64,000 nucleotides of DNA from Bradyrhizobium sp. NFR13 (GTDB lineage Bacteria; Pseudomonadota; Alphaproteobacteria; Rhizobiales; Xanthobacteraceae): contig NZ_FOTP01000004.1 in the NCBI RefSeq assembly GCF_900114605.1, positions 248,001-312,000 on the forward strand, read 5' to 3'. Within the stretch, counting starts at the first letter, position 1, and each line of letters starts with the position of its first letter. The position numbers and the translations under genes are program-made. The notes under the pieces were generated by a model. That model had not been told where the DNA came from and did not search any database. It saw only the letters and a list, made by a program, of their open reading frames with translations. This document shows positions 1-64,000 of the stretch, one piece after another.

Positions 1-675
1 CAGGGCGCCCCGGTCGATCTGGTGTTCCAGTCCATCGCCGGGACAGAGGCCACCAATAAAAGCTTCGGCATCGATCTGGCTATCCTGAAAGAGGCCCATA
101 ATGCCGGCCTGTCGCTGAAGCGCGGTACGCTCGGCCAGAACGTCATGTATTTCGAGACCGGGCAGGGCTCGGCTCTGTCGGCCAATGCCCATCACGGCGT
201 CGATCAGCAGACTTTGGAGGCGCGCGCCTATGCCGTGGCCCGCGCGTTCGACCCATTGCTGGTGAACAGCGTCGTCGGCTTCATCGGCCCCGAATATCTC
301 TATGACGGCAAGGAGATTATCCGTGCCGGGCTGGAGGATCATTTCTGCGGCAAGCTGCTCGGCCTGCCGCTCGGGGTCGACGTCTGTTACACCAACCATG
401 CCGAAGCCGATCAGGACGACATGGACAATTTGCTGACGCTGCTGGCGGCAGCGGGTGTGACCTTCGTGATGGGCGTCCCGGGCGCCGACGACGTCATGCT
501 GAACTACCAGTCGACGTCGTTTCATGATGCGCTCTATATCCGCGACCTGTTTGGGCTCAAACGCGCACCGGAATTCGACGACTGGCTGCAACGGGTCGGG
601 CTGTCCGGAGCCGACCTGCGCATTCAGGACCGGGGCGGTCTGCTGCCCGATCTGGCGGCGCGTCTGATCGCCTGA
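1..675 (+). CDS. eutB: Ethanolamine ammonia-lyase large subunit, 3' part (cut by window edge)
   Basis: The frame is open to the left edge, so only the last 224 codons of a protein that is usually about 460 residues are visible. EutB forms the catalytic TIM-barrel subunit of the adenosylcobalamin-dependent enzyme that splits ethanolamine into acetaldehyde and ammonia, together with EutC. Segments typical of the family are SIAGTEA at visible residues 11-17 and GVDVCYTNHAEADQDD at about 126-141. The partner gene eutC is not directly next to it. It lies 1.8 kb downstream at 2501, with hpnP inserted between, although the two subunit genes are normally adjacent. No carboxysome-like eut shell genes are visible in the window. 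The family call is firm; the true start is outside. Confidence 0.95.
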   Translation, partial: QGAPVDLVFQSIAGTEATNKSFGIDLAILKEAHNAGLSLKRGTLGQNVMYFETGQGSALSANAHHGVDQQTLEARAYAVARAFDPLLVNSVVGFIGPEYLYDGKEIIRAGLEDHFCGKLLGLPLGVDVCYTNHAEADQDDMDNLLTLLAAAGVTFVMGVPGADDVMLNYQSTSFHDALYIRDLFGLKRAPEFDDWLQRVGLSGADLRIQDRGGLLPDLAARLIA

Positions 676-822
676 CGTCAATAAACCGTCATGCAGGCTA
701 GCGCTCTGTGCGCACTTGCGCGGAGCTGGTCACGACCTTGTCACCGCTCGCCACAATCTTGAAGAAATTCTGGCCCAGATTCCGACACCGTGATTAGATC
801 GGGGGAAGAATTCGGCAGGAGC

Positions 823-847
823 GGAACGGTTTTATCTGGGCGACGTT
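823..847 (+). promoter_or_regulatory. EcfG-type general stress promoter upstream of hpnP
   Basis: GGAAC (823-827) and CGTT (844-847) are separated by exactly 16 bases, matching the alphaproteobacterial EcfG consensus GGAAC-N16/17-CGTT. It lies 54 bases before the hpnP ATG, in the 225-base eutB-hpnP gap. EcfG control of hpnP has been reported for Rhodopseudomonas palustris TIE-1, which supports the reading; the assignment here rests on the motif and spacing. Confidence 0.8.
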
Positions 848-900
848 ATTGAAGGTTCAGCGCTTATGGGGATCGCTGATGCATTCACAGAGGAATTTTG

Positions 901-2484
901 ATGAGAGCTGAGGGCAGGCAGACAGTCCGACGGGTTCTGTGCGTTTTTCCGCGATACACGTCTTCATTTGGCACGTTTGAATATTCCTATCCTCTCACCG
1001 ACGGCGTTCAGGCCTTCATGCCTCCCCAGGGCTTGCTGCTGATCGCCGCCTACATGCCCGAGAACTGGGAAGTCCGCTTCATCGACGAGAATATCCGGCA
1101 GGCCACGCCGAACGATTTTTTGTGGGCCGAGGCCGTGCTGGTGTCAGGCATGCATATCCAGCGCACGCAGATGAACGACATCTGTTTCCGCGCGCACAGT
1201 TATGATTTGCCTGTGGCGATCGGTGGACCTTCGGTCTCGTCATGCCCCGATTACTACCCGGCTTTCGATTATCTCCATATCGGCGAACTCGGTGATGCCA
1301 CGGATCAACTGATCGATATCCTGGAAAAGGATACGTCGCGCCCGGACCGGCAAGTCGTGCTGAAGACCGCCGATCGCCTGGACATGACCAAGTTTCCGAT
1401 TCCGGCCTATGAGCTGGCCGAGATCCCGCGCTACTTCCTGGGCAGTATCCAGTATTCCAGCGGTTGCCCGTATCAGTGCGAATTTTGCGACATTCCCGGG
1501 CTCTATGGCCGCAATCCGCGCCTGAAGACGCCGGAGCAGATCACCGCCGAGTTGGATAAGCTGCTCGCATGTGGGATCATGGGATCGGTCTATTTCGTCG
1601 ATGACAATTTCATCGGTAACCGCAAGGCTGCCCTCGATCTGCTGCCGCATCTGGTCGCATGGCAGAAAAAAACCGGTTACGTGCTGCGCCTGTCCTGCGA
1701 GGCGACGCTGAACATCGCCAAGCGTCCCGAAATTCTCGAACTGATGCGCGAGGCCTGGTTCGGCACCATCTTCTGCGGCATCGAGACGCCTGATCCCGTC
1801 GCCCTCAAGGCGATGAAGAAGGATCACAACATGATGGTGCCCATCATGGAGGCAATTGAGACGCTGAACCGTTTCGGCATGGAAGTCGTGTCCGGCATCA
1901 TTCTCGGCCTCGATACCGACAAGCCGGAAACCGGACAGCATCTGCTGGAGTTCGTGGAGACGTCGCAGATTCCGCTTTTGACGATCAATCTGCTTCAGGC
2001 GCTGCCACAGACGCCGCTATGGGACCGTTTGAAGAAGGAAGGGCGCCTGAACGAGGATGAGGGGCGCGATTCCAACGTCGACTTCTTGCTGCCTTACGAT
2101 GACGTGGTGAAGAGCTGGCGGCGGGCCATGGGCAGTGCCTATGTGCCGGAAAAGCTGCTCGAGCGTTTCGAATATCAGATCCGCAACACTTATCCCAACC
2201 GGATCAAGCCGCCGATCGGGGCCATGCTGACCTGGAAGAGCATCCGGCTCGGTCTGGTGATGTTACGCAACATCTTCTGGAAGGTCGGCGTGCTCGGCGA
2301 CTACAAGCGTGCCTTCTGGAAATTCGCTTTGCGGCGGCTGGCGCGAGGCGAGATCGAGTATCTGATCAGCGGCATCATGGTGGCGCATCACCTGATCAAT
2401 TTTGCGCGCGATGCGTCCGGCGGCCAGACCAATGCGTCCTATTATTCACTGAAGCTGCAGGATGCTGCCGTTCCGGCCGAATAA
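901..2484 (+). CDS. hpnP: Hopanoid C-2 methylase HpnP (B12-binding radical SAM)
   Basis: This 527-residue protein has the class B radical SAM methylase layout: an N-terminal cobalamin-binding Rossmann-like part (about residues 10-150), then a radical SAM barrel with the 4Fe-4S cluster motif C189-x3-C193-x2-C196 (SSGCPYQCEFC), then an extended C-terminal region. HpnP methylates C-2 of the hopanoid A ring to give 2-methylhopanoids. The ATG at 901 is chosen over the TTG at 898 because AGAGGA (889-894) sits at the right distance from it. The gene is between eutB and eutC; eutC starts 16 bases after its stop, so the two are probably cotranscribed. An EcfG-type promoter precedes it. Family identity is by overall sequence; other B12-radical SAM methylases are the only alternative. 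Confidence 0.93.
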   Translation: MRAEGRQTVRRVLCVFPRYTSSFGTFEYSYPLTDGVQAFMPPQGLLLIAAYMPENWEVRFIDENIRQATPNDFLWAEAVLVSGMHIQRTQMNDICFRAHSYDLPVAIGGPSVSSCPDYYPAFDYLHIGELGDATDQLIDILEKDTSRPDRQVVLKTADRLDMTKFPIPAYELAEIPRYFLGSIQYSSGCPYQCEFCDIPGLYGRNPRLKTPEQITAELDKLLACGIMGSVYFVDDNFIGNRKAALDLLPHLVAWQKKTGYVLRLSCEATLNIAKRPEILELMREAWFGTIFCGIETPDPVALKAMKKDHNMMVPIMEAIETLNRFGMEVVSGIILGLDTDKPETGQHLLEFVETSQIPLLTINLLQALPQTPLWDRLKKEGRLNEDEGRDSNVDFLLPYDDVVKSWRRAMGSAYVPEKLLERFEYQIRNTYPNRIKPPIGAMLTWKSIRLGLVMLRNIFWKVGVLGDYKRAFWKFALRRLARGEIEYLISGIMVAHHLINFARDASGGQTNASYYSLKLQDAAVPAE

Positions 2485-2500
2485 GCGATAGGCTGGCGTC

Positions 2501-3286
2501 ATGACAGATCGGAATGACATGACGCCACCTTTGCGGCGGCGCTCTCTCGCGGAGCTGCGTGCACTGACCCCGGCGCGTGTCGGGCTCGGCCGGGTCGGAG
2601 CCAGTCTGACGACACAGGCCCTGCTTGATTTCACGCTCGACCATGCCCGCGCACGTGACGCGGTCCATGCGCCCTTTGAGGTTGAAACCGTCGCAGCCGG
2701 ATTGGCCGGGCAGGCGACGAGCGTGCTGGTTGTAATGAGCCAGGTCGCGGATCGTGCCGATTACCTTAAGCGCCCTGATCTCGGCCGCCGACTGTCTCGC
2801 GAGTCGCGGGAGCTGCTTGAAGGGCGCAACAGCGCCGCGTGCGATCTGGTGATCGTGATCGCGGATGGTCTGTCTCCGGCTGCCGTGAATGCGCATGCAC
2901 TTGGCTTGCTGAACGCGTTGATGCCCAAATTGGCTGGGTTCGGGATCGGCGCCGTTTTGGTTGCAGGCGGCGCCAGGGTCGCGCTTGGCGACGAGATCGG
3001 TGCATTGCTGAAGGCCCGGATGACGATCATGCTGATCGGCGAACGGCCGGGTCTGTCGGCGCCGCAGAGTCTCGGTGCCTACCTGACCTTCGCACCGCAG
3101 CCGGGTCTCACTGACGCCGCGCGCAATTGCGTGTCGAACATCCAGGCTGCCGGCCTTTCGTTCGAGGAGGCAGCGAGCAAGATTGCGTGGCTGGCGCGTG
3201 AAGGGTTGAGCCGCGGCATGACCGGTGTGGCTCTGAAGGACGAAAGTGGCCTGCAACTGGCGACATCTCTCGCTGCGCCCGCCTGA
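2501..3286 (+). CDS. eutC: Ethanolamine ammonia-lyase small subunit
   Basis: The 261-residue protein fits EutC in length and in its N-terminal segment [23 protein letters not shown], shortened here to the key run [11 protein letters not shown] at about residues 23-33. EutC completes the adenosylcobalamin-binding site of the EutB6C6 lyase. Further matches are the segment with [23 protein letters not shown] (residues about 75-97; key part YLKRPDLGR) and a C-terminal region where the family binds nucleotide. It follows hpnP by 16 bases, not eutB, so its transcription may depend partly on the hpnP promoter. About 215 bases without a gene separate it from the next gene. Assignment is by family resemblance and by the eutB gene upstream. 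Confidence 0.92.
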
Positions 3287-3500
3287 GACAACAGCCTCTG
3301 CGCTCTATTTTGTGACCTGAAACGCAACCTGCGCGCGCGCGCCGCCTTGCGATATGTCATGCAGACCTGCTACATCTGCGCGCGCCAAATTTACCGCATG
3401 TTTTCAAGGGCTAGCGCTGTTCGGTACCGCCGATTCCAGCCTTACTGCTGCCCGCGACGCTTGCTAGGCAGACGCCGTCGACGACAGGACTGGATAAGGC

Positions 3501-5870
3501 ATGCACGATAAGGTTCCCCACGACGCGGATACGAATAAATTGCGAAAGGGGCCGGTCAGCATCGCCTTTGGGCTCGAACGCATCGGTCTGATCGCGGTGA
3601 AGGCGCCGGTACTATCCTGCGTGATTCTGCTCGCGCTGGTGATCGGTGCGATTTTCGGCATCCAGCGCATCAAGATCGACGATTCGCTGAGCCAGCTGTT
3701 CCGCTCCGACAGCAAGGAATATCGGCAATACGAGGAAGTGACCAAGCGCTTCCCGTCCACCGAGTTTGACGTGCTCGTCGTGATCGAGGGCAAGACGCTG
3801 CTCGCGCGCGAGAACCTCGAAAAGATGCGTGACCTCGTCACCGATCTGCAACTGGTCGATGGCGTCCGCGGTTTGATCTCGATTTTCTCGGCACGTCAGA
3901 CACCGGCCCCTGGCAAACTGCCGGCTGCATTGTTCCCCAATGAGCTTCCTCAGGGCGCCGACTACGACAAGTTCATCGAGACGGTAAAGCAGAACGAACT
4001 CATTCGCGGCAAGTTGTTGTCCGACGACGGAACTCTGGCGCTGGTGGTTCTGTCACTCGATCCGGCCGTGGTCAGCAACAACAAGCTGACAGGCGTCGTT
4101 GCCGATATCCGCAAGACCATGAACGACGATCTGGCCAATAGCGGTCTGACCAAGGAACTGTCGGGCGTGCCGGTGATGCAGCTCGAAATCCGCAATGCGG
4201 TCGAGCGCGACGGTCTGATCTATAACATCGCCGGTATCCTGGCCGGCTGCATCATCGCCATCATCTTCTTCCGGAAGGTCTCGTTCATGATTGTGGCGGC
4301 GTTCCCGCCGCTGCTCGCGATCCTCTTGTCGCTCGGCGTGCTCGGCTGGGCCGGCTTCAGCCTCAACATGTTCCTCAACGTGATGACGCCGCTGATCATG
4401 GTGATCAGTTTTGCCGACTCGATGCAGCTCACTTTCGCGGCGCGTGACCGGCTGATTGCAGGCGAGGACAAGTATTCGGCCTTTACGAATGCGGTCCGTG
4501 TCGTGGGTCCGGCTTGCGTCCTGACGCATGGCACCGCCGGCATTTCCTTTCTCGCCTTGCAGTTCTCGGATTCTGATCTGATCCGCGCCTTCGGCGAAGC
4601 CGGGCTCGCGGCGACCATCATTGCACTGCTCGCCGTGTTGTCGCTCGTGCCGGTGTTCGGCGTGCTGCTGGTGCGCAACGAGAAGATTTTCGCGCAGAAG
4701 TTCCAGACTGCCGACGCCGGTGTGCAGGCGCTGCGTGCGTTCTGTTACTGGATCGCGGTCCGCATGGTCGGTCGTCCCGGCCTGTTCAGTCTGATCTCGC
4801 TGATCGTCGTCGTCGGATTGGGCGTGGTCTATGCGAATCTCGAACCGCGCTATCGACTCGCCGATCAGGTGCCGGACAAGGAGCAGGCGGTTGCGGCCAG
4901 TGGGCGCCTCGACGCCAAGCTGACCGGCGCCAATCCGATCGATGTGCTGATCGAATTTCCGAAGGGCGCCGATCTGTATTCGCCGGACACGCTTCAGACC
5001 ATCGCCGAAGTCCACGCCATGGTCGAGAAGCAGGCCGGCGTGGGTAACGTCTGGTCGCTGGAGACGCTGCGGCGCTGGCTGGCGGAGAAGGCCGGCTCGA
5101 CCGATGTCGCGACGCTGAAGGAATATGTCAGCGTGATCCCCGAACATCTGGTGCGCCGCTTTATCTCGGCAGATCAGACGGCGGTGGTGGTGTCTGGCCG
5201 TGTGCCCGACAGCGATTCGAGCCAGATCCTGCCGGTGGTCGACAAGCTCGACACCGCGCTGAACGCCGTCCGCACCAAGCACCCCGGCTATGAGATCGCG
5301 GTGACTGGTCTCTCGGCTATCGCGGCGCGCAACAGCGCCGGCATGATCGAGAAGCTCAATCACGGCCTGACCATCGAATTCGGATTGGTCGCCGTCTTCA
5401 TCGGCCTCGCATTCCGCTCATGGGTGGTGATGCTGGCCTGTATCCTGCCGGGCATCTTCCCGGTGGTGCTGGCCGGCTTTGTCTTGTGGCTGCTCGGGGA
5501 GGGGCTGCAATTTGCCAGTGTGGTGGCACTGACGGTGTCCTTCGGCCTCGGCCTCAGCGCCACAATCCACTTCCTCAATCGCTTGCGTCTGGAAGACACG
5601 CCGGGCACCGATCCCGCGATCGCCGTCGAGCGTGCGACTGTGCTCGTTGGTCCCGCGCTGATCCTGACCACGGTAGTGCTGGCCTGCGGCCTCGTGGTGA
5701 CGGTGTTCTCGGATCTGCCGTCGCTGCGGCTGTTCGGCTGGCTCAGCGCCTTCTCCATGGTGGCAGCATTGGTCGCCGACCTGTTCATCCTGCGCCCGAC
5801 CGCCATGTGGCTGATCAATCTGCAGCAGCGCCTCACGGGCAGTTCCGTTCTTGCGAAGCAAGAGAAGTAG
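3501..5870 (+). CDS. RND superfamily (MMPL/HAE3-type) exporter
   Basis: A 789-residue inner-membrane protein with the duplicated RND layout. One membrane helix at about residues 33-55 is followed by a large periplasmic loop (about 56-235), then a block of five helices (about 240-395), then a second unit with a helix at about 430-450, another periplasmic loop, and a final helix block (about 625-770). Relatives of this length are proton-driven transporters of lipids and other hydrophobic compounds, and work without a dedicated adaptor. It is distinct in sequence from hpnN at 15804, which is 862 residues. Position between the hpnP-eutC pair and hpnC suggests a link to hopanoid or envelope lipid movement, but that is inference. 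It ends 31 bases before a two-way terminator. Confidence 0.85.
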   Translation: MHDKVPHDADTNKLRKGPVSIAFGLERIGLIAVKAPVLSCVILLALVIGAIFGIQRIKIDDSLSQLFRSDSKEYRQYEEVTKRFPSTEFDVLVVIEGKTLLARENLEKMRDLVTDLQLVDGVRGLISIFSARQTPAPGKLPAALFPNELPQGADYDKFIETVKQNELIRGKLLSDDGTLALVVLSLDPAVVSNNKLTGVVADIRKTMNDDLANSGLTKELSGVPVMQLEIRNAVERDGLIYNIAGILAGCIIAIIFFRKVSFMIVAAFPPLLAILLSLGVLGWAGFSLNMFLNVMTPLIMVISFADSMQLTFAARDRLIAGEDKYSAFTNAVRVVGPACVLTHGTAGISFLALQFSDSDLIRAFGEAGLAATIIALLAVLSLVPVFGVLLVRNEKIFAQKFQTADAGVQALRAFCYWIAVRMVGRPGLFSLISLIVVVGLGVVYANLEPRYRLADQVPDKEQAVAASGRLDAKLTGANPIDVLIEFPKGADLYSPDTLQTIAEVHAMVEKQAGVGNVWSLETLRRWLAEKAGSTDVATLKEYVSVIPEHLVRRFISADQTAVVVSGRVPDSDSSQILPVVDKLDTALNAVRTKHPGYEIAVTGLSAIAARNSAGMIEKLNHGLTIEFGLVAVFIGLAFRSWVVMLACILPGIFPVVLAGFVLWLLGEGLQFASVVALTVSFGLGLSATIHFLNRLRLEDTPGTDPAIAVERATVLVGPALILTTVVLACGLVVTVFSDLPSLRLFGWLSAFSMVAALVADLFILRPTAMWLINLQQRLTGSSVLAKQEK

Positions 5871-47388: not shown

Positions 47389-47673
47389 CACCGGCCATCT
47401 GGCATCCGCGGACTCTCGGATCGCTGTTTGAGCCCCCGCATCGCAGCAACGATTTTCCGATCTGCTCACGGATTGGCCGCAGAACTCCGTGTTCCAAGAA
47501 AGCCTTCCTAGTCCCCCGCTGCGACGCCAGAGGCTGCGCTATCGCAGAGGTGTAGTTTATTATATCAATAAACTACGGCGAGCATGCACCAAGCGAACAA
47601 GCTCGTCGACGCTGACCAAGACGCCGGTCCACGAGTGTCGATGCGTCAGCGGAATGACTATCAAGGGGGCGAC
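47389..47673. other. Leader of the SMC-like gene with inverted repeat
   Basis: No gene is seen in this part of the 363-base gap 47311-47673. It holds an AT-rich spot at about 47550-47578 with a perfect inverted repeat, and the strong ribosome site AAGGGGG just before 47674. Confidence 0.5.
47552..47576. promoter_or_regulatory. Perfect inverted repeat, possible operator of the SMC-S24 gene
   Basis: GTAGTTTATT (47552-47561) and AATAAACTAC (47567-47576) are exact complements separated by ATATC. The site is 98 bases before the ATG at 47674 and is the only AT-rich patch in the leader, so it may overlap the promoter. There is no T run that would make it a terminator. Confidence 0.55.
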
Positions 47674-50600
47674 ATGCCGATCTCGTTGAGCGAAGCGAAA
47701 ACGCATCTGCTAAAAGGCACGCCATTGTTGTGGACGAAGTTCGAGAGCCACAAAGCCGGTTCGGTCGTTCTTGAAACTGCTGGTGCGCGGCGACTGTTCA
47801 AATTCTTGAGCGAGCAGGTTTCGTCAAAGGTCGCGGAAGCCAACGAACAGCTGTTTTCAGGCCTTATAGCTGCATGGGCCGCAACTGATGATCCAGCCGC
47901 AACGCTCATCTCCGCACCGACAGTAGCGGCGGCCGGCGTTTGGAGACTGATGCGCATCGAGGCTCAGAACTTCGGTGGTCTGACGACGTTTGACGGGCCA
48001 CCATTCGACATGATCATTGGTAGCGAAAATTGGTGTCTTGAAGGTCAAAATGGAAGCGGCAAGACCTCGCTAAGTAACGCAATCCTCTGGGCGATGACGG
48101 GAAAGCGTGTTCGAGAACAGGACGGCTTGGTCGACGAGCTTGGCGCACGCGCGCCGGTCAGCAATGCAGCAGGGAAAGAAATCGGAAAGTGGCCATCGGT
48201 CGTTTCCTATCCAAAAACACCCGCCGAACTCGCAAAGAGTGCCGTTGCTTGGGTGCGGCTGACTTTCGAGAATGAGAAGAGCGAGCAAGCCATCGCAGAG
48301 CGGAAAATCACATCGCCTAAAGATGGTGATTCCACGCATGACGTTTCAATAGATGCGCGATTGATCACTGTTCCTCAGTTGATCGAAACAGGTCTACTGA
48401 TGCCTGCGCGCATCCCTCGCATTGGCTTTGGTGACAAGAGTCAGTCTCTTTACGAAGGCGTAAAGCTGCTCACAGGTCTCGATCAACTCGGCGATATCGC
48501 CGACGGCGCAAGTAAATTCGGAAATAAAGCCCAGCGCTTCTACAAGTACGCTAAAGATCAAGGTGTCGACGCTATTGAAGCCACGTTCGCCACGAACATC
48601 GGTAAAGCAGAGATTCACGCAAAGACACTCACAATCGATATCTCTGGGCTTCGAACGCTCGGGCAAAAGGATTTGGACAAATCTCTTGTGGAGGCTGCCA
48701 AATCTGCCGCCGCTCAGGCTAGCGGCCACATCGCAACACTAAAGACCGAAATTGCCGAAGGCCTCGACACGAGCGTTGTAGCCGTACGAACGCAAGTAAA
48801 GCAGGCTGTGCAGAGCGCCCGCGCGATTGCCAGACTGGGAGTTAGCGGAATTGTTCAATTTGAAGCATGGGTGGCGCTAAAGGACGCGTCTACGGATGAA
48901 AAGTTTGCGTTGCTTCCCGGCGCGATCAAGGTCGCGCAAGGAAAGCTTGAAGAAGCGGTTCTCTGGCATAGGCGGCAGTCCGAAGACAATAGGCTTCGTC
49001 TTAAAGCGCTCGCCGCACGCTACTTCGTAGAACCCGAGAAAAACGCGCTAGCAATTTGTCCGCTTTGCGAAGGCGAGCTAACGACCGCGGACCAGAAGAA
49101 GCTTGCCGCCGAACTTGCAGATCTCCGTAAGCACGCCGCCGCTGCCGAAAGGAAAGTCGAGGATGCGTGCGCAGCGATCGACCGCGATCTTCGCGCGTTG
49201 TTGACATCTGAAATTGGAAAGCATTTCGATCTCCTTCGTGCAATGGCTCCAAAAGACGCATATTCGGATGCCGCGCGAGCGCGTTTTTCCGAGAATGAGG
49301 CCTTCAGCGACGTACTGACCGGCATAGCCAAGCTCACAATCGAGATTGTCGATAGCCAGATAATCGCATTGCCAACATTCTCGGCACCTGCGGTGACGGC
49401 GATCCCGTCAGATACGCCGGAAGTAGCGGCCACGCTTTGGAAGACTATGCATTCGCTGCAAACGGTTTGCGAATTGGCGGCGTGGTGGGGAGGAAATGCG
49501 GCCGCGTTTCGTGACGCATGGGCGCAGCTCGTCGGCAAAACCAAGGAAAACGAGGAGCCGCCGGAGCGCTCAATCGCTGGACAGATTCTAAAGCTGGAAC
49601 AAGCTATCGAAAAGGCGGAGCCGCTCGATCAGTTTGCGGCGTGCCTAACCGCTGCTGCGGACGCTGTAGTGAAATGGGAGAAAATCCAGGAACATCAGAG
49701 GGTCCGCGAGGCGATCATTGAAGCTCTGGAACCGCTTAAAGAGCTGCGTCATCTCGTTAGCGCAGAAACAGCACGGTCAATCACGACGCTGTCGGGGCGC
49801 ATCAAGATAGTTCTCGAAAAAATTCGACTTCAAGAGCGATTTACATATGAAGACGCATCGCTCGGTCGCAAAGCGGTCAACGTAGAGGGCAGCTTCGACC
49901 CGGGCGTGCAGATCGACGCCTTGCTTGTCGCAAATACCTCGTGGTTGCGCGCGATCCTCTGGGCATTTGTTTTTGCGTTGCGCGAGGAGACAATTGAGCA
50001 GATCGGCTTCAATCCTATGCCGCTTGTCCTGTTGGACGACCCACAGGTTACGTTTGACCCGCGCAACAAGAGAAAGTGGGCGCAAGAGATAGCGCGCCTC
50101 GCCAATCTCGATGCGGCTGATCCGATGGGAATGCACCTCATCCTCACCACGCATGAACGGCAGTTTTTTCAATATCTCGTTGATGAGTACTTGCTTGAGG
50201 GCCAGCAGGGCTTCGTTTCGCCGCTCAACAAAGCGTCGCCTGTCGTAACCATCGTCAACGGTACGAATGTCGATCGTCAATATGAGAAGGCTGTGGCGAA
50301 CAACGATGATGCCGTCGCCCGGCAATTCATTGCCGCTGTCAGAGTGTATTGCGAGGATTTGCTGAAATGCATGATGCGGGCTGAGAGCCCCGATATTTTT
50401 GATATGAGCCTCGATGCCCTTCGCAACGAACTTAAGCGCCTGCGCGAAGCGCATGTGCAACCGTTCAACCGTCAAGTCTTTAGAGAATTGGTAGATATGC
50501 TGATGGGCGGTGGCGGCAAGGAAATGAATGTCATCAACCAAACGCATCATAAAGATGACGAAACGCTTGGCGTTGCGCAGGCAAAAGACATCAAAAAGTT

Positions 50601-51555
50601 TTGGGACAAGAAACTTCGGCCCAAGCTACATCAAGCGTTCCACGTGTACGCCCAGTTCGAGGCATTTTCTGGAGAGCCTCGGCTGTTTGCTTGGCAGGAC
50701 AACGTCGTCGCTTTCCCAGAGGGGAACGCAGAGGCGATCAAGAAGTTCACGCTTTTGAAAACAGGTGTAGCGGCCGCAGCGAAGACCGACGGTCGAGCCG
50801 GTGATGGCATCGTCACCATCAAAGAATGGGAAGCGGCCAAGCCCATTCGCCTATTTAATCATGACGTCTACCAACTTGCCGCGGGTACCCTTGATCCAAT
50901 CGCCGGAATAGGTGATTTTCTGATCGTGTCTAATTTTGCTCCAGTGACTAAGCATAGCCTTGTGGTCGCGACATTCGGTGAGCAGCTACTGGCGCGGCGT
51001 CACAGTGAAACGGACGTACATCCAGACATGGCGGTTCTAACCGGCCAAACACTCGAACCTCACGATCTTCCTCAGCCAGTGATCGCGCCCAAAGAGAAAG
51101 TGAAGCAAAAGAAAGTAGTTGGAACGCTGTTTGTGTCGCATCTTACTGCGCCACCACCGAAAGTAGCCAATCAGGAGGTTGTAGCGGTAAGTGATCTGTC
51201 GTTGGTGGAAAAGACGTTGGCTAACGCGCGTCTTTTCGAAGTGCAAGGGCGCAGTGCCGAGCCTATCGCGCTAGATACGCAGCTATTGGTCACGCATCCG
51301 GTCAATTTCGGGGCTGAAGCACTGAAGCGCTTGGAAGGCCGTCTCGTTGTAGCAGTAGACGATGCGGGTGAGCGTTATTTCAAGCGGCTCCGTGTGCACA
51401 ATAAACTTGTCGTCCTGGAGAGCCTCAATCCCGATGGCAACACGCCTGCACAATTACTTAGTCTCGACGGATCGAACGGTCTTCCCACGCTTTCAGGCTT
51501 GTTGGAGGTAGTTGGAGTTCTTTTCGAAGTTCCCGATCAAGGTTCAACGGCATGA
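47674..51555 (+). CDS. SMC/Rad50-like ATPase with zinc hook and two C-terminal S24/LexA-like domains
   Basis: A 1293-residue protein. Walker A is GQNGSGKT (124-131), a CPLC hook (C462, C465) lies in a helical middle region (about 290-720), and Walker B is PLVLLDDPQ (DD788-789) with TTHERQ after it. The last 240 residues contain two folds with S24/LexA layout. One (about 1064-1160) has GTLDP, GDFLIV, HSLVVATFGEQLLARR and KVVGTLF. The other (about 1205-1285) has GRLVVAVDD, GERYFKRL, VVLESLNPD and EVVGVLF. The first has Thr and Arg in place of the Ser/Lys dyad; the second keeps the Lys only. The ATG at 47674 follows AAGGGGG and is preferred to one at 47584. GC is lower than in flanking genes, which suggests transfer. 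Function unknown; DNA-damage or antiphage sensing is plausible. Confidence 0.8.
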   Translation: MPISLSEAKTHLLKGTPLLWTKFESHKAGSVVLETAGARRLFKFLSEQVSSKVAEANEQLFSGLIAAWAATDDPAATLISAPTVAAAGVWRLMRIEAQNFGGLTTFDGPPFDMIIGSENWCLEGQNGSGKTSLSNAILWAMTGKRVREQDGLVDELGARAPVSNAAGKEIGKWPSVVSYPKTPAELAKSAVAWVRLTFENEKSEQAIAERKITSPKDGDSTHDVSIDARLITVPQLIETGLLMPARIPRIGFGDKSQSLYEGVKLLTGLDQLGDIADGASKFGNKAQRFYKYAKDQGVDAIEATFATNIGKAEIHAKTLTIDISGLRTLGQKDLDKSLVEAAKSAAAQASGHIATLKTEIAEGLDTSVVAVRTQVKQAVQSARAIARLGVSGIVQFEAWVALKDASTDEKFALLPGAIKVAQGKLEEAVLWHRRQSEDNRLRLKALAARYFVEPEKNALAICPLCEGELTTADQKKLAAELADLRKHAAAAERKVEDACAAIDRDLRALLTSEIGKHFDLLRAMAPKDAYSDAARARFSENEAFSDVLTGIAKLTIEIVDSQIIALPTFSAPAVTAIPSDTPEVAATLWKTMHSLQTVCELAAWWGGNAAAFRDAWAQLVGKTKENEEPPERSIAGQILKLEQAIEKAEPLDQFAACLTAAADAVVKWEKIQEHQRVREAIIEALEPLKELRHLVSAETARSITTLSGRIKIVLEKIRLQERFTYEDASLGRKAVNVEGSFDPGVQIDALLVANTSWLRAILWAFVFALREETIEQIGFNPMPLVLLDDPQVTFDPRNKRKWAQEIARLANLDAADPMGMHLILTTHERQFFQYLVDEYLLEGQQGFVSPLNKASPVVTIVNGTNVDRQYEKAVANNDDAVARQFIAAVRVYCEDLLKCMMRAESPDIFDMSLDALRNELKRLREAHVQPFNRQVFRELVDMLMGGGGKEMNVINQTHHKDDETLGVAQAKDIKKFWDKKLRPKLHQAFHVYAQFEAFSGEPRLFAWQDNVVAFPEGNAEAIKKFTLLKTGVAAAAKTDGRAGDGIVTIKEWEAAKPIRLFNHDVYQLAAGTLDPIAGIGDFLIVSNFAPVTKHSLVVATFGEQLLARRHSETDVHPDMAVLTGQTLEPHDLPQPVIAPKEKVKQKKVVGTLFVSHLTAPPPKVANQEVVAVSDLSLVEKTLANARLFEVQGRSAEPIALDTQLLVTHPVNFGAEALKRLEGRLVVAVDDAGERYFKRLRVHNKLVVLESLNPDGNTPAQLLSLDGSNGLPTLSGLLEVVGVLFEVPDQGSTA

Positions 51556-59138: not shown

Positions 59139-59627
59139 ATGCTGCGATCCGATCTCACCGAAAAGCTGCTCGACATCAAGCGCGAGAAGGAATGGACCTG
59201 GAAATATATTTGCGAGCAGATCGGCGGCTATTCCGAAGTGCTGATCGTCGGCGCCATTCTCGGCAACATGAAGCTGACCAAGCCGCAGGCGGCTAATGCC
59301 GGCGAGCTGTTCGGCCTCTCGAAGAGCGAGACTGCGATGCTCAACGAGATTCCGATGCGCGCCGAAAACGTGCAGATGCCGCCGCAGGATCCGCTGATCT
59401 ATCGCTTCTACGAGATGGTGATGGTGAACGGCCCGGCCTGGAAGGCGCTGATCGAGGAGGAGTTCGGCGACGGCATCATGTCGGCGATCGATTTCGACAT
59501 GGTGATGCAGCGCATCGCCAATCCCAAGGGCGACCGCGTGCAGATCACGATGTCCGGCAAGTTCCTGCCCTACAAGTATTACGGCGCGACGGGCAATGTG
59601 CCGGAATATGGGTTCAAGGAAGGGTAG
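59139..59627 (+). CDS. cynS: Cyanase
   Basis: A 162-residue cyanate hydratase, active as a decamer. It turns cyanate and bicarbonate into CO2 and carbamate, which breaks down to ammonia. The catalytic residues R89, E92 and S115 keep the exact spacing of E. coli R96/E99/S122. The N-terminal helical domain precedes the catalytic domain YRFYEMVMVNGPAW. It is the last gene of the uptake-cyanase operon. Its 3' 210 bases recur downstream of parDE. Confidence 0.97.
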   Translation: MLRSDLTEKLLDIKREKEWTWKYICEQIGGYSEVLIVGAILGNMKLTKPQAANAGELFGLSKSETAMLNEIPMRAENVQMPPQDPLIYRFYEMVMVNGPAWKALIEEEFGDGIMSAIDFDMVMQRIANPKGDRVQITMSGKFLPYKYYGATGNVPEYGFKEG

Positions 59628-59646
59628 GCGTAGCGGACCTGTTTCA

Positions 59647-59717
59647 CTCTCCTCCCGTGCGAAGCGACCCTTCGCCAGCGGGGAGAGGTCGCGCGCTCTT
59701 GCGCGCGGGTGAGGGAC
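59647..59717. repeat. Palindromic intergenic repeat (GGGGAGAGG type)
   Basis: CGGGGAGAGGTCGCGCGC...GCGCGCGGGTGAGGGAC matches the element family at 26951 and 47320. It lies between cynS and the toxin-antitoxin genes. Confidence 0.7.
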
Positions 59718-59799
59718 GTTGCTCCGGTCTGTGGGCCAACAGACGAGATTGGCAAAGATTGCCAATTGCGATAATCTGCTGTCCAGTGGAGATCTCGCC

Positions 59800-60069
59800 A
59801 TGCCGACACGCAACGTCAATCTGACGGACGAACAGGACGCCTTCGTCGATGAGGTCGTCCGCGCCGGGAAATATCAGAACGCCTCTGAGGCGATGCGCGA
59901 CGCGGTGCGCGGCTTGCAGCATCGCATGCAGGCCGACGAGCTGAAGCTCGATCTGCTGCGTGCGCAGGTTCAGGCCGGGCTCGATGCGCTCGGGCGCAGC
60001 GACTTCACGGAACTGGACGACGCGGACCTCGATGCCGCGCTGGATGACCTCGCCGCGCCCGCGCGGTGA
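59800..60069 (+). CDS. parD: ParD-family antitoxin
   Basis: An 89-residue protein with the ribbon-helix-helix start MPTRNVNLTDEQDAFVDEVV and GKYQNASEAMRDAVR, typical of type II ParD/CopG antitoxins. The acidic C terminus (LDDADLDAALDDL) is the toxin-binding part. The ATG at 59800 is the family start. It is followed by parE after three bases. Confidence 0.9.
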   Translation: MPTRNVNLTDEQDAFVDEVVRAGKYQNASEAMRDAVRGLQHRMQADELKLDLLRAQVQAGLDALGRSDFTELDDADLDAALDDLAAPAR

Positions 60070-60072
60070 CGC

Positions 60073-60426
60073 ATGGCGCGCTATCGGCTGTCCGAACCGG
60101 CCAGGGCAGATATCGCCGGCGCGCTGCGGACCAGCGAGACGATGCACGGGGCGGATGCGCGCCTGCGTTATCGCGCGCTGCTGACGGCGGCGATGCGGCG
60201 CATCGCAGCCGATCCGGTGTCGCCTGTGAGCGTCGATTGCAGTGACCTGTTCGACGGTCTGCGCAGCTACCACATCCGCCACAGCCGCAGCGATGGCCGC
60301 GAGGCGCCGGTCGGCCATCCCGTCCATGTGATCTTCTATCGCGCAGCCGAAGCCGGCGTCATCGAAATCGTCCGCGTGCTGCATGAGCGGATGCTGCCGA
60401 GCCGGCATGTCGAGGGCAATCCCTGA
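60073..60426 (+). CDS. parE: RelE/ParE-family toxin
   Basis: A 117-residue toxin of the RelE/ParE fold with YRLSEPARADIAGALRTSE at the start and VHVIFYRAAEAGVIEIVRVLHERM at the end (key part IEIVRVLHERMLP). ParE members poison gyrase, RelE members cut mRNA; the parD partner favours ParE. It has a 15-residue insert (RSDGREAPVGH) in the middle. It ends about 12 bases before a truncated second copy of cynS. Confidence 0.9.
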   Translation: MARYRLSEPARADIAGALRTSETMHGADARLRYRALLTAAMRRIAADPVSPVSVDCSDLFDGLRSYHIRHSRSDGREAPVGHPVHVIFYRAAEAGVIEIVRVLHERMLPSRHVEGNP

Positions 60427-60437
60427 CGACATCATGA

Positions 60438-60650
60438 GTGGTGATAGTCAACGGCCCGGCCTGGAAGGCGCTGATCGCAGCGGAATTCGGCGACGGCATC
60501 ATGTCGGCGATCGATTTCGACATGGTGATGCAGCGCATCAGTAACCCCAAGGGCGACGGCGTGCAGATCACGATGTCCGGCAAGTTCCTGCCCTACAAGT
60601 ATTACGGCGCGACGGGCAATGTGCCGGAATATGGGTTCAAGGAGGGGTAG
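60438..60650 (+). pseudogene. Truncated second copy of cynS (3' end)
   Basis: About 70 codons that match cynS from residue 94 to its stop at roughly 94 percent. Ser115 is present but Arg89 and Glu92 are missing, so no cyanase activity is possible. Homology begins at the TGGTGAT just after parE and ends at the stop codon. Differences include Glu-Glu to Ala-Ala and Arg to Gly, so it is a diverged allele rather than a fresh copy. Confidence 0.92.
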
Positions 60651-60963
60651 GGCACGTGCGTGCTGGTCTCGGACGCGGTGCAGTAATCTCAGGCGATGCC
60701 TTGGCATCGCCGATATGGTGGACGGTAGGTCCGGGACCAGCGCGGGGCGGCCGTTTTGCTTGCGGCGAATTATGAGTCACCGCGGAGCAGTGTCCAAAGC
60801 AGCCAAGAACCGCCGCGCGAATCAAATGCGATTCGCGTGCGGTCGAGTGGCTGGAATTTGTCCCTATCTAAGTCCTGATAGTGTCGAACTAATTTTAGAA
60901 TAAGTGACAAGAGCAGAGATAACACTAGCCTCCTAACTTCATCGACGCGGATGGAGGCGGAAC
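60651..60963. other. Intergenic stretch, 313 bases, at the edge of the low-GC island
   Basis: No gene seen. It contains the hairpin GGCGATGCC/GGCATCGCC (60692-60711) and CGCGAATC/GATTCGCG (60816-60837), neither with a T run. Composition turns AT-rich after about 60840. A GGAGG ribosome site at its end serves the next gene. Confidence 0.5.
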
Positions 60964-61251
60964 ATGGAAAATATTCTACTATTTCGCCAGCTACTTAAGT
61001 CGCTGGACTTCCTTTGCGCGGTCCATGTTGCGGTTCGTGTCGTTTGCGTGGTGGGCGTGCTTGCCAGTTTAATTTTTTCAGACGCAAATGAGTCTTCAAA
61101 GAAGCAGTTGGAGTTTGAACGAGAAGTGCTTTTGCGGCATTTAGCTGAACTCGAACGGCAGGCGGAGCACAGACGTCTGTTAGATCTCATCGAAGCTATC
61201 AAGCCTCGACGTGACTTGACACTTCCCGCAGAGTTCGACGAAGGGTATTAG
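60964..61251 (+). CDS. Small membrane protein with coiled-coil tail
   Basis: A 95-residue protein. One hydrophobic helix covers about residues 16-38 (FLCAVHVAVRVVCVVGVLASLIF, key part VVCVVGVLASLIF), followed by a charged, Glu/Leu-rich helix (about 45-75) that should form a coiled coil, and a short tail. GGAGG lies before the ATG. It is 55 bases upstream of the SIR2-like gene in the same direction and of similar lower GC, so it may belong to the same unit. No family was recognised. Confidence 0.6.
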   Translation: MENILLFRQLLKSLDFLCAVHVAVRVVCVVGVLASLIFSDANESSKKQLEFEREVLLRHLAELERQAEHRRLLDLIEAIKPRRDLTLPAEFDEGY

Positions 61252-61306
61252 TCTTGCGATAATACGACAGGCTGAACCGTGAGGGCGATCGTCGTGCTGG
61301 TACACC

Positions 61307-62314
61307 ATGACTGATGGCCTTAAAGCTATTCCTGAGATTCCGTCAGTCCTTCGCGACGCGGCGCAGCGTGGAGTTATGATCCCGTTTGTTGGCGCGGGAG
61401 TTTCTGTTTTAGCCGGGTCGCCAACGTGGGGGCAACTCGCAGACGGTGCTTTGCGAGAATGCGTACGAAATAACAAATTCACGTATAGTCAATTGGCTCA
61501 GATCGAACACCTAAGCCCGCGTGTCAAACTATCGATTGCGCGCGGACTAGAGCTTGAACATGGATTTTCAATAGATTTCGCCAGTCTTGTCCAGCCGAAG
61601 CTGAGCGACGAGAAGAAGGCTGTCGGAAATCGCATTTACTCGTTGCTTGGAAGATTGGGAACAACATTCGTTACCACCAACTATGATGACTGGTTAGGTA
61701 CCGAAATTGTCGATATTCCGCTCCGGGTGAATGCTCCCGACGTTCAGCAAACGACAACGGCAAGTTCGCCAACAGTGCGTCGGCAAATATTTGACGTGAA
61801 CGAATTCACGCTAGCGAATCTCGATAATCCGAAAACCGTGTTTCATCTCCACGGGTCGCTCGCTGAGCCGTCCGGCATGATCATGACTACGCGTGAATAC
61901 ATCATGCGTTATCGAAATGATCGATTGAGCAGTGGCGCTGACCGTGAAAATCGAACGCTTACATTTTTGGATTATTTGTTCTCACAGAAGACGGTGCTGT
62001 TTGTTGGGTACGGTCTCGAAGACCTAGAAATTCTTGAATACGTTGTTCAAAAAGCGCGAGTGCCGATGGAAGGTGGGCAGGCCGAGGCAAAACACTTTAT
62101 GATCCAAGGCTATTTTTCGCACGAAGAGGAGCTGATGAGAAGTCTTGCTCAATACTACAGGCAATGCGGTATCCAGCTTCTGCCCTTTCTGCGAGATAGG
62201 AAGGATTGGGCGCAGCTTACAGACGTGTTGGAGGAGTTCGCGCGTGCAATGCCTGCAAAGTCGCCAATGAATCTGGAAATTCAAGCCAACATGGAGGCTC
62301 TCCTGGATGACTAG
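61307..62314 (+). CDS. SIR2-family protein (probable NAD-consuming effector)
   Basis: A 335-residue protein of the SIR2-like family found in bacterial defence genes. The NAD-binding GAGVS (29-33), TTNYDDW (123-129, with the catalytic-type Asn), FHLHGS (H182 is the likely catalytic His) and FVGYGLEDLEI (232-242) all match. No zinc-binding cysteines of the deacetylase subgroup are present, so an NADase role is more likely than protein deacetylation. The last 60 residues are helical. Its TAG overlaps the next gene's ATG by eight bases (62307-62314), which implies a coupled pair. Low GC suggests transfer. Confidence 0.88.
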   Translation: MTDGLKAIPEIPSVLRDAAQRGVMIPFVGAGVSVLAGSPTWGQLADGALRECVRNNKFTYSQLAQIEHLSPRVKLSIARGLELEHGFSIDFASLVQPKLSDEKKAVGNRIYSLLGRLGTTFVTTNYDDWLGTEIVDIPLRVNAPDVQQTTTASSPTVRRQIFDVNEFTLANLDNPKTVFHLHGSLAEPSGMIMTTREYIMRYRNDRLSSGADRENRTLTFLDYLFSQKTVLFVGYGLEDLEILEYVVQKARVPMEGGQAEAKHFMIQGYFSHEEELMRSLAQYYRQCGIQLLPFLRDRKDWAQLTDVLEEFARAMPAKSPMNLEIQANMEALLDD

Positions 62315-64000
62315 CCTCCCCTCCAAGTTGGAGTCCTTCATCGAAACGATGAAGAAGGGTGACGAATTCGCCCACCATGGCTTCGAGCTGTTATCGAAGC
62401 GATCCGAGCCCGAAAAGTATTTCGATGCTCTCAAAAATGCCGGATTCTTCAACGCGGACCGCAACCCAGAAGCAATTCCTTCTCAAGAGCCGGGGTTCGT
62501 TCAGATCCCATTTTGGTCTGCTCTAGTCTATCTAAAAGCAGTCTCCAAGAGCGCCGGGGAGAATGATAACTCGCGGCTTGCAGATAAAATTCTTGCAGTT
62601 GTTCGAGGTGTCACAACGTTTCGGGGGGCTAACGGAAAGTATCGCGACAACTATCGAACATACTACAGTTTTGCGGATATGTTCGGCGTTCTGCCTCTCG
62701 CCAGCATTTCGTTGGATGACATAGCGCTGGTGCGCATCTGGCTCGCATCGCGCTTTGATCGCTCGCTTGTGGCGAGTTCTTTGAGTAAGGGGCTCCTAAA
62801 GCGTCTTCTTTCAGCTGCGCTACCGGAAAATATTGATCGGGCGTGCGAGCTGTTGAAGGAGTGCGTGGCTTTTGAGTGGCGCTCCGAGAAGGATCAAAGG
62901 GGGAGGGAGCTGGTTTCCGCGGTCGATGACTATTGGCTCAAGGAACTTTTAGACGCCCATGCAAGAACGATTGGCGGAAAAGCTGGGCTTCGGGCTGTCC
63001 GGATTTTCGAAGAAGGACTTCGCACAATCTTTTCAGACGTGCGGCGGAGCTATGGGAGTACCCTATGGCGTCCGGCTATCGAAACGAGTGAACAGAACAC
63101 AGAGTTTGGTAGCGTTGAGAATAGATTCGTTGAAGGAATGCGGGAGTCGCTTGGTGGCTGGATAGAGGCTGCGCCATCCGATGCGGTCGGCTACGTAAAA
63201 GAGATATTGACCGACAAGTCAGATATCATCCGGCGCATCGCGGTCAACTCTGTTATAGAGTATTTCGAGCTGCTTAGCGAAACTTTCGAAGAGGTGATTT
63301 CTAAAGAACTCTTCTCGGTGGAGTTACGTCACGAGATGTATCGTCTGCTTAAGCAGCGTTTCAGCAGACTATCGGCGGTGGGAAAGGAAAAGGTGATCGC
63401 ATCATTGCGCGATCTACCTCAGCTAGCTGTGGAGGATTCCGAGCGTCGCCTCCGGTTTACGCAACGAGAGTGGTTGACAGCGATCAAGGATCAACCGGAG
63501 GTAACGGACTGGTATCATGAACTCTTGGCAGACACCACGCTGGGGGCTCCCTCGGACCATCCCGAGTTTCTGAGTTACCACGAAACTCGTATGGGCCCTG
63601 GCCCCGCGCCGTTTGAGCAGGAAGCTATTGTCGCGTTTGCGGAAGATGGTTCGCTTGTTGGCCGCTTGAATGCCTTCGAAGAAACAGACTCTTGGAAGGG
63701 GCCCACGCTACGGGGGTTGATCGATGCGCTCGAGGCCGCTGTAGCGAGCGCGCCGGGAGCGTTTATTTCGCTCTTGGCAGAGTTTAATCAAGCCAAGATA
63801 CCTTTTCAGTACGCACTGATTTCGGGATTCTTGCGCGCATTTGAGATGGTCGATGAAAAGAGAGAGCTCTTCGACTGGAACTTGGCTTGGCCGAGGCTCA
63901 TTTCGTTCTTTGCGGACCGTCTGAATGACCCAGACTTTTGGTTGGAATCGACCGGCGACGAGCAAGGGGGGATGATCGCTAACCGCTCTTGGTTGACGTC
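62307..64000 (+). CDS. Large helical-repeat partner of the SIR2 protein (cut by window edge)
   Basis: An open frame from the ATG at 62307 with no stop to 64000, at least 564 residues. It is mostly alpha-helical with charged surfaces, as in HEAT/ARM-like solenoids. A stretch of the type HPEFLSYHETRMGPGPAPF, then WKGPTLRGLIDALEAAV and ISLLAEFNQAKIPFQYALI (residues about 415-500), looks like a conserved piece of very large defence-associated helical proteins. No enzyme motif was seen in the visible part. It overlaps the SIR2 gene by eight bases. In DSR-type defence proteins a SIR2 head is fused to such a helical sensor; here the two are separate genes. Confidence 0.8.
   Translation, partial: MTSLPSKLESFIETMKKGDEFAHHGFELLSKRSEPEKYFDALKNAGFFNADRNPEAIPSQEPGFVQIPFWSALVYLKAVSKSAGENDNSRLADKILAVVRGVTTFRGANGKYRDNYRTYYSFADMFGVLPLASISLDDIALVRIWLASRFDRSLVASSLSKGLLKRLLSAALPENIDRACELLKECVAFEWRSEKDQRGRELVSAVDDYWLKELLDAHARTIGGKAGLRAVRIFEEGLRTIFSDVRRSYGSTLWRPAIETSEQNTEFGSVENRFVEGMRESLGGWIEAAPSDAVGYVKEILTDKSDIIRRIAVNSVIEYFELLSETFEEVISKELFSVELRHEMYRLLKQRFSRLSAVGKEKVIASLRDLPQLAVEDSERRLRFTQREWLTAIKDQPEVTDWYHELLADTTLGAPSDHPEFLSYHETRMGPGPAPFEQEAIVAFAEDGSLVGRLNAFEETDSWKGPTLRGLIDALEAAVASAPGAFISLLAEFNQAKIPFQYALISGFLRAFEMVDEKRELFDWNLAWPRLISFFADRLNDPDFWLESTGDEQGGMIANRSWLT

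Follow-up and report, generated by a model that had tools for sequence, protein, structure and literature searches.

We analyzed a 64,000-nucleotide stretch of Bradyrhizobium sp. NFR13 (hereafter the window; contig C11:248001-312000 of its genome), and concentrated on two overlapping genes that lie at its end. The first encodes a SIR2-family protein and the second a large, predicted helical partner (Table 1). An earlier, sequence-only reading of the window had described a SIR2 gene with NAD-site motifs that overlaps its partner by eight bases. We confirmed the motifs (GAGVS, TTNYDD, HLHG and GYGLEDLE) and the overlap, and the SIR2 protein matched the Pfam family SIR2_2 (PF13289) with E = 6.6e-16 and 59.1 bits, against a cut-off of 24.5. 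The partner, for which at least 564 helical codons had been reported, was completed in the adjacent stretch past the window edge as an open reading frame (ORF) of 942 amino acids (aa; L005:2307-5135). For a homologue that is 57% identical to it (L050), the predicted fold was helical almost throughout, apart from four short strands (mean pLDDT, the predicted local distance difference test, 88.9; predicted template modelling score, pTM, 0.60), and by homology the window partner is likewise predicted to be almost all helical. The low-GC setting was also borne out: the G+C content (GC) was 0.505-0.534 across 61-64 kb, compared with 0.58-0.68 in most other 1-kb blocks of the window, and 0.61-0.65 directly past the pair. 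A second low-GC stretch of the window lies at 48-51 kb (0.53-0.56). The translation of the two genes is probably coupled.

Table 1. Coordinates of the SIR2–partner gene pair and its junction (positions in the window)
Feature	Position	Strand	Remarks
SIR2-family gene	61307..62314	+	335 aa; coordinates include the stop codon; predicted NADase effector; from ORF and profile matches
Helical partner gene (predicted), first 564 codons	62307..64000	+	runs on to would-be window position 65135 (contig C11:313135)
Start/stop overlap of the SIR2 and partner genes	62307..62314	+	8 base pairs (bp), ATGACTAG; direct sequence reading
Shine-Dalgarno-like GGAGG in the end of the SIR2 gene	62293..62297	+	9 bases upstream of the partner start

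We conclude that the SIR2 protein and its partner are the two halves, made as separate polypeptides, of a protein resembling defence-associated sirtuin 1 (DSR1), because one PADLOC Dsr1 profile (PDLC04166, 1227 positions) matched both in order. The SIR2 protein matched positions 6-289 (E = 2.4e-49) and the complete partner positions 308-1206 (E = 1.2e-101). This agrees with the suggestion of the sequence-only reading that the SIR2 enzyme and the helical part of a DSR-type protein are encoded here as separate proteins. Dsr1 was the sole PADLOC match of the partner, which in its complete form matched no Pfam family at E up to 0.01. In canonical DSR1 (PADLOC Dsr1; NCBIfam NF041818; for example WP_013028139.1 of Nitrosococcus halophilus), about 900 residues follow an N-terminal SIR2_2 domain, and the window pair is arranged likewise. 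Two marks of DSR1 membership, a SIR2 domain with NAD-site residues and a Dsr1-related C-terminal region, were both present in the pair. However, DSR1 is one polypeptide of about 1200-1290 aa, whereas the pair comprises two ORFs in different frames, and a long branch separated the pair from canonical Dsr1 in both the SIR2 tree and the partner tree. A profile built from 40 split partners and the window partner matched eight of 14 long proteins, most of them chosen as being of Dsr1 type, with a best score of 43.8 bits (E = 6.8e-15, a value calculated within that small set). On these profile scores, the relationship of the split partners to the long Dsr1-type proteins is one of distant kinship rather than membership.

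The active site of the SIR2 protein was well conserved. In an alignment of 43 SIR2 proteins (that of the window and 42 others), G29-A30-G31, T123-T124-N125-Y126-D127, H180 and H182-G183 were invariant. Mutation of N133 or H171 of DSR2 lowers its NADase activity, as described in the accessible part of PMC10981675, and from their positions in the motifs, not from superposition, N125 and H182 appear to be the equivalent residues. The SIR2 family profile matched 16 distinct sequences of the Protein Data Bank (PDB) at E up to 0.1, the best being KomC (2.3e-17) and DSR2 (8.8e-16); ThsA and FAM118B chains were also matched.

We found that the split is conserved in other genomes, as the sequence-only reading had proposed to check. 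Using two SIR2 motifs as seeds, we scanned the species-genome collection and obtained 54 loci, a sample that is uneven owing to this seeding. In 42 of them, a SIR2 ORF and a partner were separated at the same split point as in the window (site A), and a plasmid of Vibrio coralliilyticus (L039) carried both genes, with identities of 37% and 25% and an overlap of 8 bp. In seven other loci the split lay farther downstream (site B), giving proteins of about 500 and 750 aa. The rest comprised a site-A split with broken frames (L069), a fused protein of 1228 aa (L096), a truncated SIR2 gene with no partner match (L100) and two distant SIR2 genes (L102 and L103). By their names, the site-A organisms belong to Pseudomonadota, Nitrospirota, Acidobacteriota, Planctomycetota, Thermodesulfobacteriota, Myxococcota, Zixiibacteriota and Bacteroidota, many of them metagenome bins. 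The two-gene form thus recurs in dozens of distant bacteria. The site-B loci (L078, L079, L081, L083, L087, L094 and L095) were betaproteobacterial; their first protein, of about 500 aa, contains SIR2 and the first helical part and their second is a separate protein of about 750 aa, with overlaps of 4 bp in six loci and 8 bp in one. A contig of the viral collection (L040) grouped with them and ended shortly after the first gene.

Searches of other collections returned few additional copies. Among 61 related genomes, the SIR2 search recovered the own genome and two weak matches. Among plasmids, the partner was found in one record and SIR2 in seven, one of which had at least 80% coverage. The partner was found at no locus in viral contigs, and neither the partner nor the fused L096 had a match in phage records. 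A search of 274 genomes of another class with the partner profile, run without a positive control, gave no match.

The 42 site-A loci of the scan and the Vibrio plasmid were scored as 43 pairs, with L069 excluded for its frame breaks and L100, L102 and L103 not counted as pairs. Two of the pairs (L074 and L075) are cut by contig ends and the partner ORF of L077 has only 309 aa, which left 40 complete pairs in addition to the window. The partner start was picked from 30 bases before to 10 bases after the SIR2 stop with a preference for ATG, so the overlap lengths depend on this rule; three of the picked starts were TTG and four were GTG. With starts picked in this way, a start/stop overlap was present in all 43 pairs, of 8 bp in 24, 4 bp in ten, 1 bp in four, 11 bp in two, 23 bp in two and 14 bp in one. 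The two pairs scored with 23-bp overlaps (L074 and L101) have alternative starts at -8. A Shine-Dalgarno-like site (at least five of six matches) preceded the partner start in 32 of the 43 pairs, compared with 111 of 817 control places in the same SIR2 genes.

For comparison, at E up to 1e-10 the canonical PADLOC model PDLC02183 had matches in 27 of 398 genomes of the phylum, and one open frame of at least 1100 aa was present in 17 of the 27 (eight had partial matches and were left unclassed). The single-chain form is thus the usual one in canonical Dsr1 and is rare in the branch of the window, where one of the 54 loci was fused. The canonical Dsr1 frame of G745 (C3:527548-531360, L042) holds two stops, in contrast to the conserved split, and is probably decayed. 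In G077 (C20:8608-12421), a canonical-type match extends across two open frames of 879 and 412 aa, which is perhaps a further split point.

DSR1 is described as a single-gene system in the accessible part of PMC10973363, and we found no description of a two-gene DSR1 in titles and abstract openings of a literature sample that covered few subscription journals. The sequence-only reading had suggested that the pair could be a distinct system, which is overstated because the pair is a variant within DSR1-like proteins.

Taken together, these findings make it likely that the two overlapping genes, which are probably coupled in translation, encode a DSR1-like NADase that acts against phage. The effector that consumes NAD+ would be the SIR2 protein, and the 942-aa helical, HEAT-like partner would be the remainder of the DSR1 chain, binding the SIR2 protein. 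The partner would sense a phage component, namely a phage protein, and activate the NADase in trans, after which NAD+ would drop and phage growth would halt. The complex, its trigger and its outcome are drawn by analogy with DSR2 as the accessible part of PMC10981675 presents it. The outcome need not be abortive infection, because DSR1 is reported to inhibit phage replication without cell death in the part of a review that was available (PMC10952713).

Several observations weigh against this interpretation. The cut-off of the NCBIfam Dsr1 equivalog NF041818 is 1400 bits; the SIR2 protein reached 22 bits and the partner had no match to this model. As the PADLOC profile was matched and the NCBIfam cut-off was not reached, the pair is placed in one PADLOC Dsr1 group and not in NCBIfam Dsr1. 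The pair is rare near its host: the partner was found in two of 397 genomes of the order, its own included and the other match weak, and among 398 genomes of the phylum the Dsr1 model had no strong match apart from G000. Against PDB sequences, the best E of the partner profile was only 0.98. The best PDB folds for L050 were eukaryotic HEAT-type proteins (among them CAND1 and importins; E = 7e-6, template modelling (TM) score at most 0.34), and DSR2 was absent among the 50 fold matches listed. For these reasons, the sensing role of the partner rests on analogy. Coupled translation, phage sensing, NAD+ depletion and protection are all steps that we infer, and protection and the NADase role are predictions.

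Further points against it concern the neighboring genes. At the chromosomal site of the pair, seven intervals were fetched from congeners and five were scanned; three gave clear or moderate PADLOC matches, one gave a weak match and one gave none. Around the scan loci, 303 PADLOC families matched over 125 neighbor ORFs, compared with four over 66 control ORFs. The 125 (of 234) were the nearest two per side within 3.5 kb, with four loci, the type-B loci and ORFs of at least 1200 aa excluded; the control excluded ORFs longer than 1200 aa, and hence an LmuB-like ORF of the window at 47584. This comparison agrees in direction with the defence genes beside individual copies of the pair, but it counts families, not genes, and a few proteins dominate it (the hsdS of L086 alone accounts for 97). 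Because single proteins match many families, we gave the comparison little weight and kept our overall confidence at likely rather than anything firmer.

Four other explanations were considered. One is a toxin-antitoxin-like arrangement, in which the SIR2 protein would be a constitutive NADase that the helical protein restrains until it is lost or titrated. This would suit two overlapping genes of which one encodes a putative toxin and the other a far larger protein, and a parDE pair adjoins. However, the fused L096 has both parts in one chain, which fits a sensor and effector better than a labile antitoxin, and the partner matches the C-terminal part of the Dsr1 model; we therefore regard this explanation as unlikely. 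Less probable still is that a SIR2 enzyme and a helical protein serve in housekeeping or signalling unrelated to phage. It gains from the fact that the defence role is predicted rather than experimentally based, and it fits poorly with the patchy distribution, the low GC, the homology to Dsr1, the variable site at which congeners carry other defence genes and the restriction genes around L086.

Programmed ribosomal frameshifting at the overlap, yielding a fused DSR1-like protein plus a short SIR2 protein, might be expected from genes that overlap in different frames and have a fused relative of 1228 aa (L096). Yet the required shift varies, the partner being in relative frame +1 in 29 of the 43 site-A pairs and +2 in 14; a slippery-like heptamer was found near the SIR2 stop in just two; and a ribosome-binding-like site of its own precedes the partner. 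As the frame is not constant and slippery-like sites are nearly absent, we rejected this explanation as highly improbable. The least credible explanation is that a recent frameshift or an assembly error has interrupted a single DSR1-like gene. It was rejected because the divergent Vibrio plasmid and 42 scan loci share the split, a Shine-Dalgarno-like site precedes the partner start and both relative frames occur among relatives, even though the ORFs together (335 + 942 aa) match one DSR1 in order and in approximate length and broken Dsr1 genes such as that of G745 exist.

The DSR1-like two-gene NADase that we favor resembles several known systems in part. DSR2 also joins a SIR2 NADase to a helical C-terminal sensor (accessible part of PMC10981675), and the SIR2 profile of the pair matches DSR2 chains as given above. 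In a fold search with the fused L096, cut to 1200 residues, DSR2 structures came first (E = 1.9e-9). Their overall TM-scores were 0.18-0.24 among the matches listed, and matches to the SIR2 part only had target TM-scores of about 0.7; the low overall scores carry little information because the middle of the model (about residues 330-730) was poorly predicted. However, DSR2 is one chain and the pair is two, and no Dsr2 model was among the PADLOC matches of either protein at E up to 1. The SIR2-APAZ/short prokaryotic Argonaute (pAgo) system, SPARSA, is likewise a two-gene NADase with a separate SIR2 protein, and was found at the same chromosomal site in the congener G016. It differs in that the window partner matches no pAgo model and the window SIR2 protein is without an APAZ part. 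In Kongming (KomB-KomC), a separate SIR2 NADase works with a partner protein, and KomC chains were the best match of the SIR2 profile; SIR2-HerA similarly pairs a separate SIR2 NADase with a second protein, according to the accessible part of PMC11514479. In contrast to both, the window partner is a helical Dsr1-type protein without any HerA or KomB model match in Pfam or PADLOC. For Thoeris, the PADLOC ThsA models matched the SIR2 part only.

We also asked how the two genes have evolved in relation to each other. SIR2 and partner distances were strongly correlated over 41 pairs (Mantel r = 0.87; none of 999 permutations as high). Four marine genomes (L084, L086, L090 and L099) departed from this pattern. 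In the SIR2 tree they grouped with L096 and L097 at a support of 100, and a constraint that placed them with six further gammaproteobacterial rows was rejected (approximately unbiased test, p-AU = 3.6e-7). In the partner tree, grouping them with L096 and L097 was rejected (p-AU = 1.5e-53), and they fell with the other gammaproteobacterial rows with support of 36, or 92-97 in the tree of the C-terminal part. These p-values are not clean, as the groups were chosen after the first trees had been inspected. By identity, the four were closer to L096 and L097 throughout SIR2; in the partner, identity was even over the first ~180 columns, and after that they were closer to the gammaproteobacterial rows. 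It looks as if their SIR2 had been exchanged at or near the gene junction. Site B formed one clade in both trees. A single clade of all site-A loci was rejected with the C-terminal partner tree (p-AU = 0.021). The fused L096 sat among site-A rows in both the SIR2 and the partner trees, a placement that suggests re-fusion, although repeated fission would be indistinguishable from it.

A broader interpretation, for which we see the chances as evenly balanced, is that these loci represent a widespread, unnamed and modular DSR1-like branch. In this branch, a free SIR2 NADase would be an exchangeable subunit activated in trans by a HEAT-like sensor, fission would have occurred at two points or more, the two-gene form would be usual and the effector would have been swapped between sensor lineages. 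If true, nature would provide a split DSR in which sensing and killing are separable and can be re-paired. DSR1 and DSR2 are treated as single sense-and-act chains in the accessible part of PMC10973363. In the conserved two-protein form, each half can be expressed, mutated and re-paired separately; therefore, the control of SIR2 by the helical part becomes directly testable. The two-gene form may escape tools that seek one Dsr1 protein, as in the Vibrio plasmid record, which names the two genes 'SIR2 family protein' and 'hypothetical protein'.

The sequence-only reading had further allowed for a third gene and had called for a check of the neighborhood. A third gene was unsupported at this locus. 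The candidate, a 95-aa ORF at 60964-61251, matched nothing in Pfam or PADLOC at E up to 1, and was rejected as a component since tblastn against 51 loci (43 site-A pairs, seven site-B pairs and L103) gave a best E of 1.2. As to the neighborhood, several copies of the pair have defence genes beside them, and some congeners carry such genes at the corresponding site. The interval bounded by cynS and an AraC-family gene varies within the genus and measures 0.8-4.6 kb in the seven congeners with both flanks together, and about 5.5 kb here. It contains the SIR2-APAZ/short-pAgo pair in G016 (L118; E = 5.7e-183 and 2.7e-197), and a canonical-type Dsr1 in three ORFs with overlaps of 4 and 8 bp in G002 (L121, about 458-4066, where the TTG start at about 458 is our own reading), perhaps another fission. 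In G009 (L119), a protein of 1177 aa resembles LmuA weakly (E = 2.4e-8); G001 has only a weak ZorA-like match (2.6e-5), and G010 no PADLOC match in the two ORFs scanned. The genus appears to have a defence hotspot in this interval.

Ten hand-picked neighbor proteins provided examples at other loci. In Colwellia (L086), hsdM and hsdS lie upstream of the pair and hsdR downstream; in L061 a DrmD-like helicase lies one gene from the pair, and the pair of L056 adjoins a type IV restriction gene. The ORF layout of Bermanella (L099) is as in L086.

Three side observations concern the window and its continuation. At 59416-60651, two copies of the final 213 bp of cynS, the cyanate lyase gene, share 94% identity (59416-59628 and 60439-60651), and a parDE toxin-antitoxin pair sits between them, beside the SIR2 pair; an insertion seems to have restored the end of the gene. 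In the second low-GC stretch, a 1323-aa ATPase (47584-51555) shows weak LmuB similarity (PADLOC E = 1.3e-11) and is perhaps another defence gene. About 3 kb beyond the pair, a 666-aa protein (L005:8276-10273, minus strand) shows weak DrmC-like similarity (PADLOC E = 8.6e-11).

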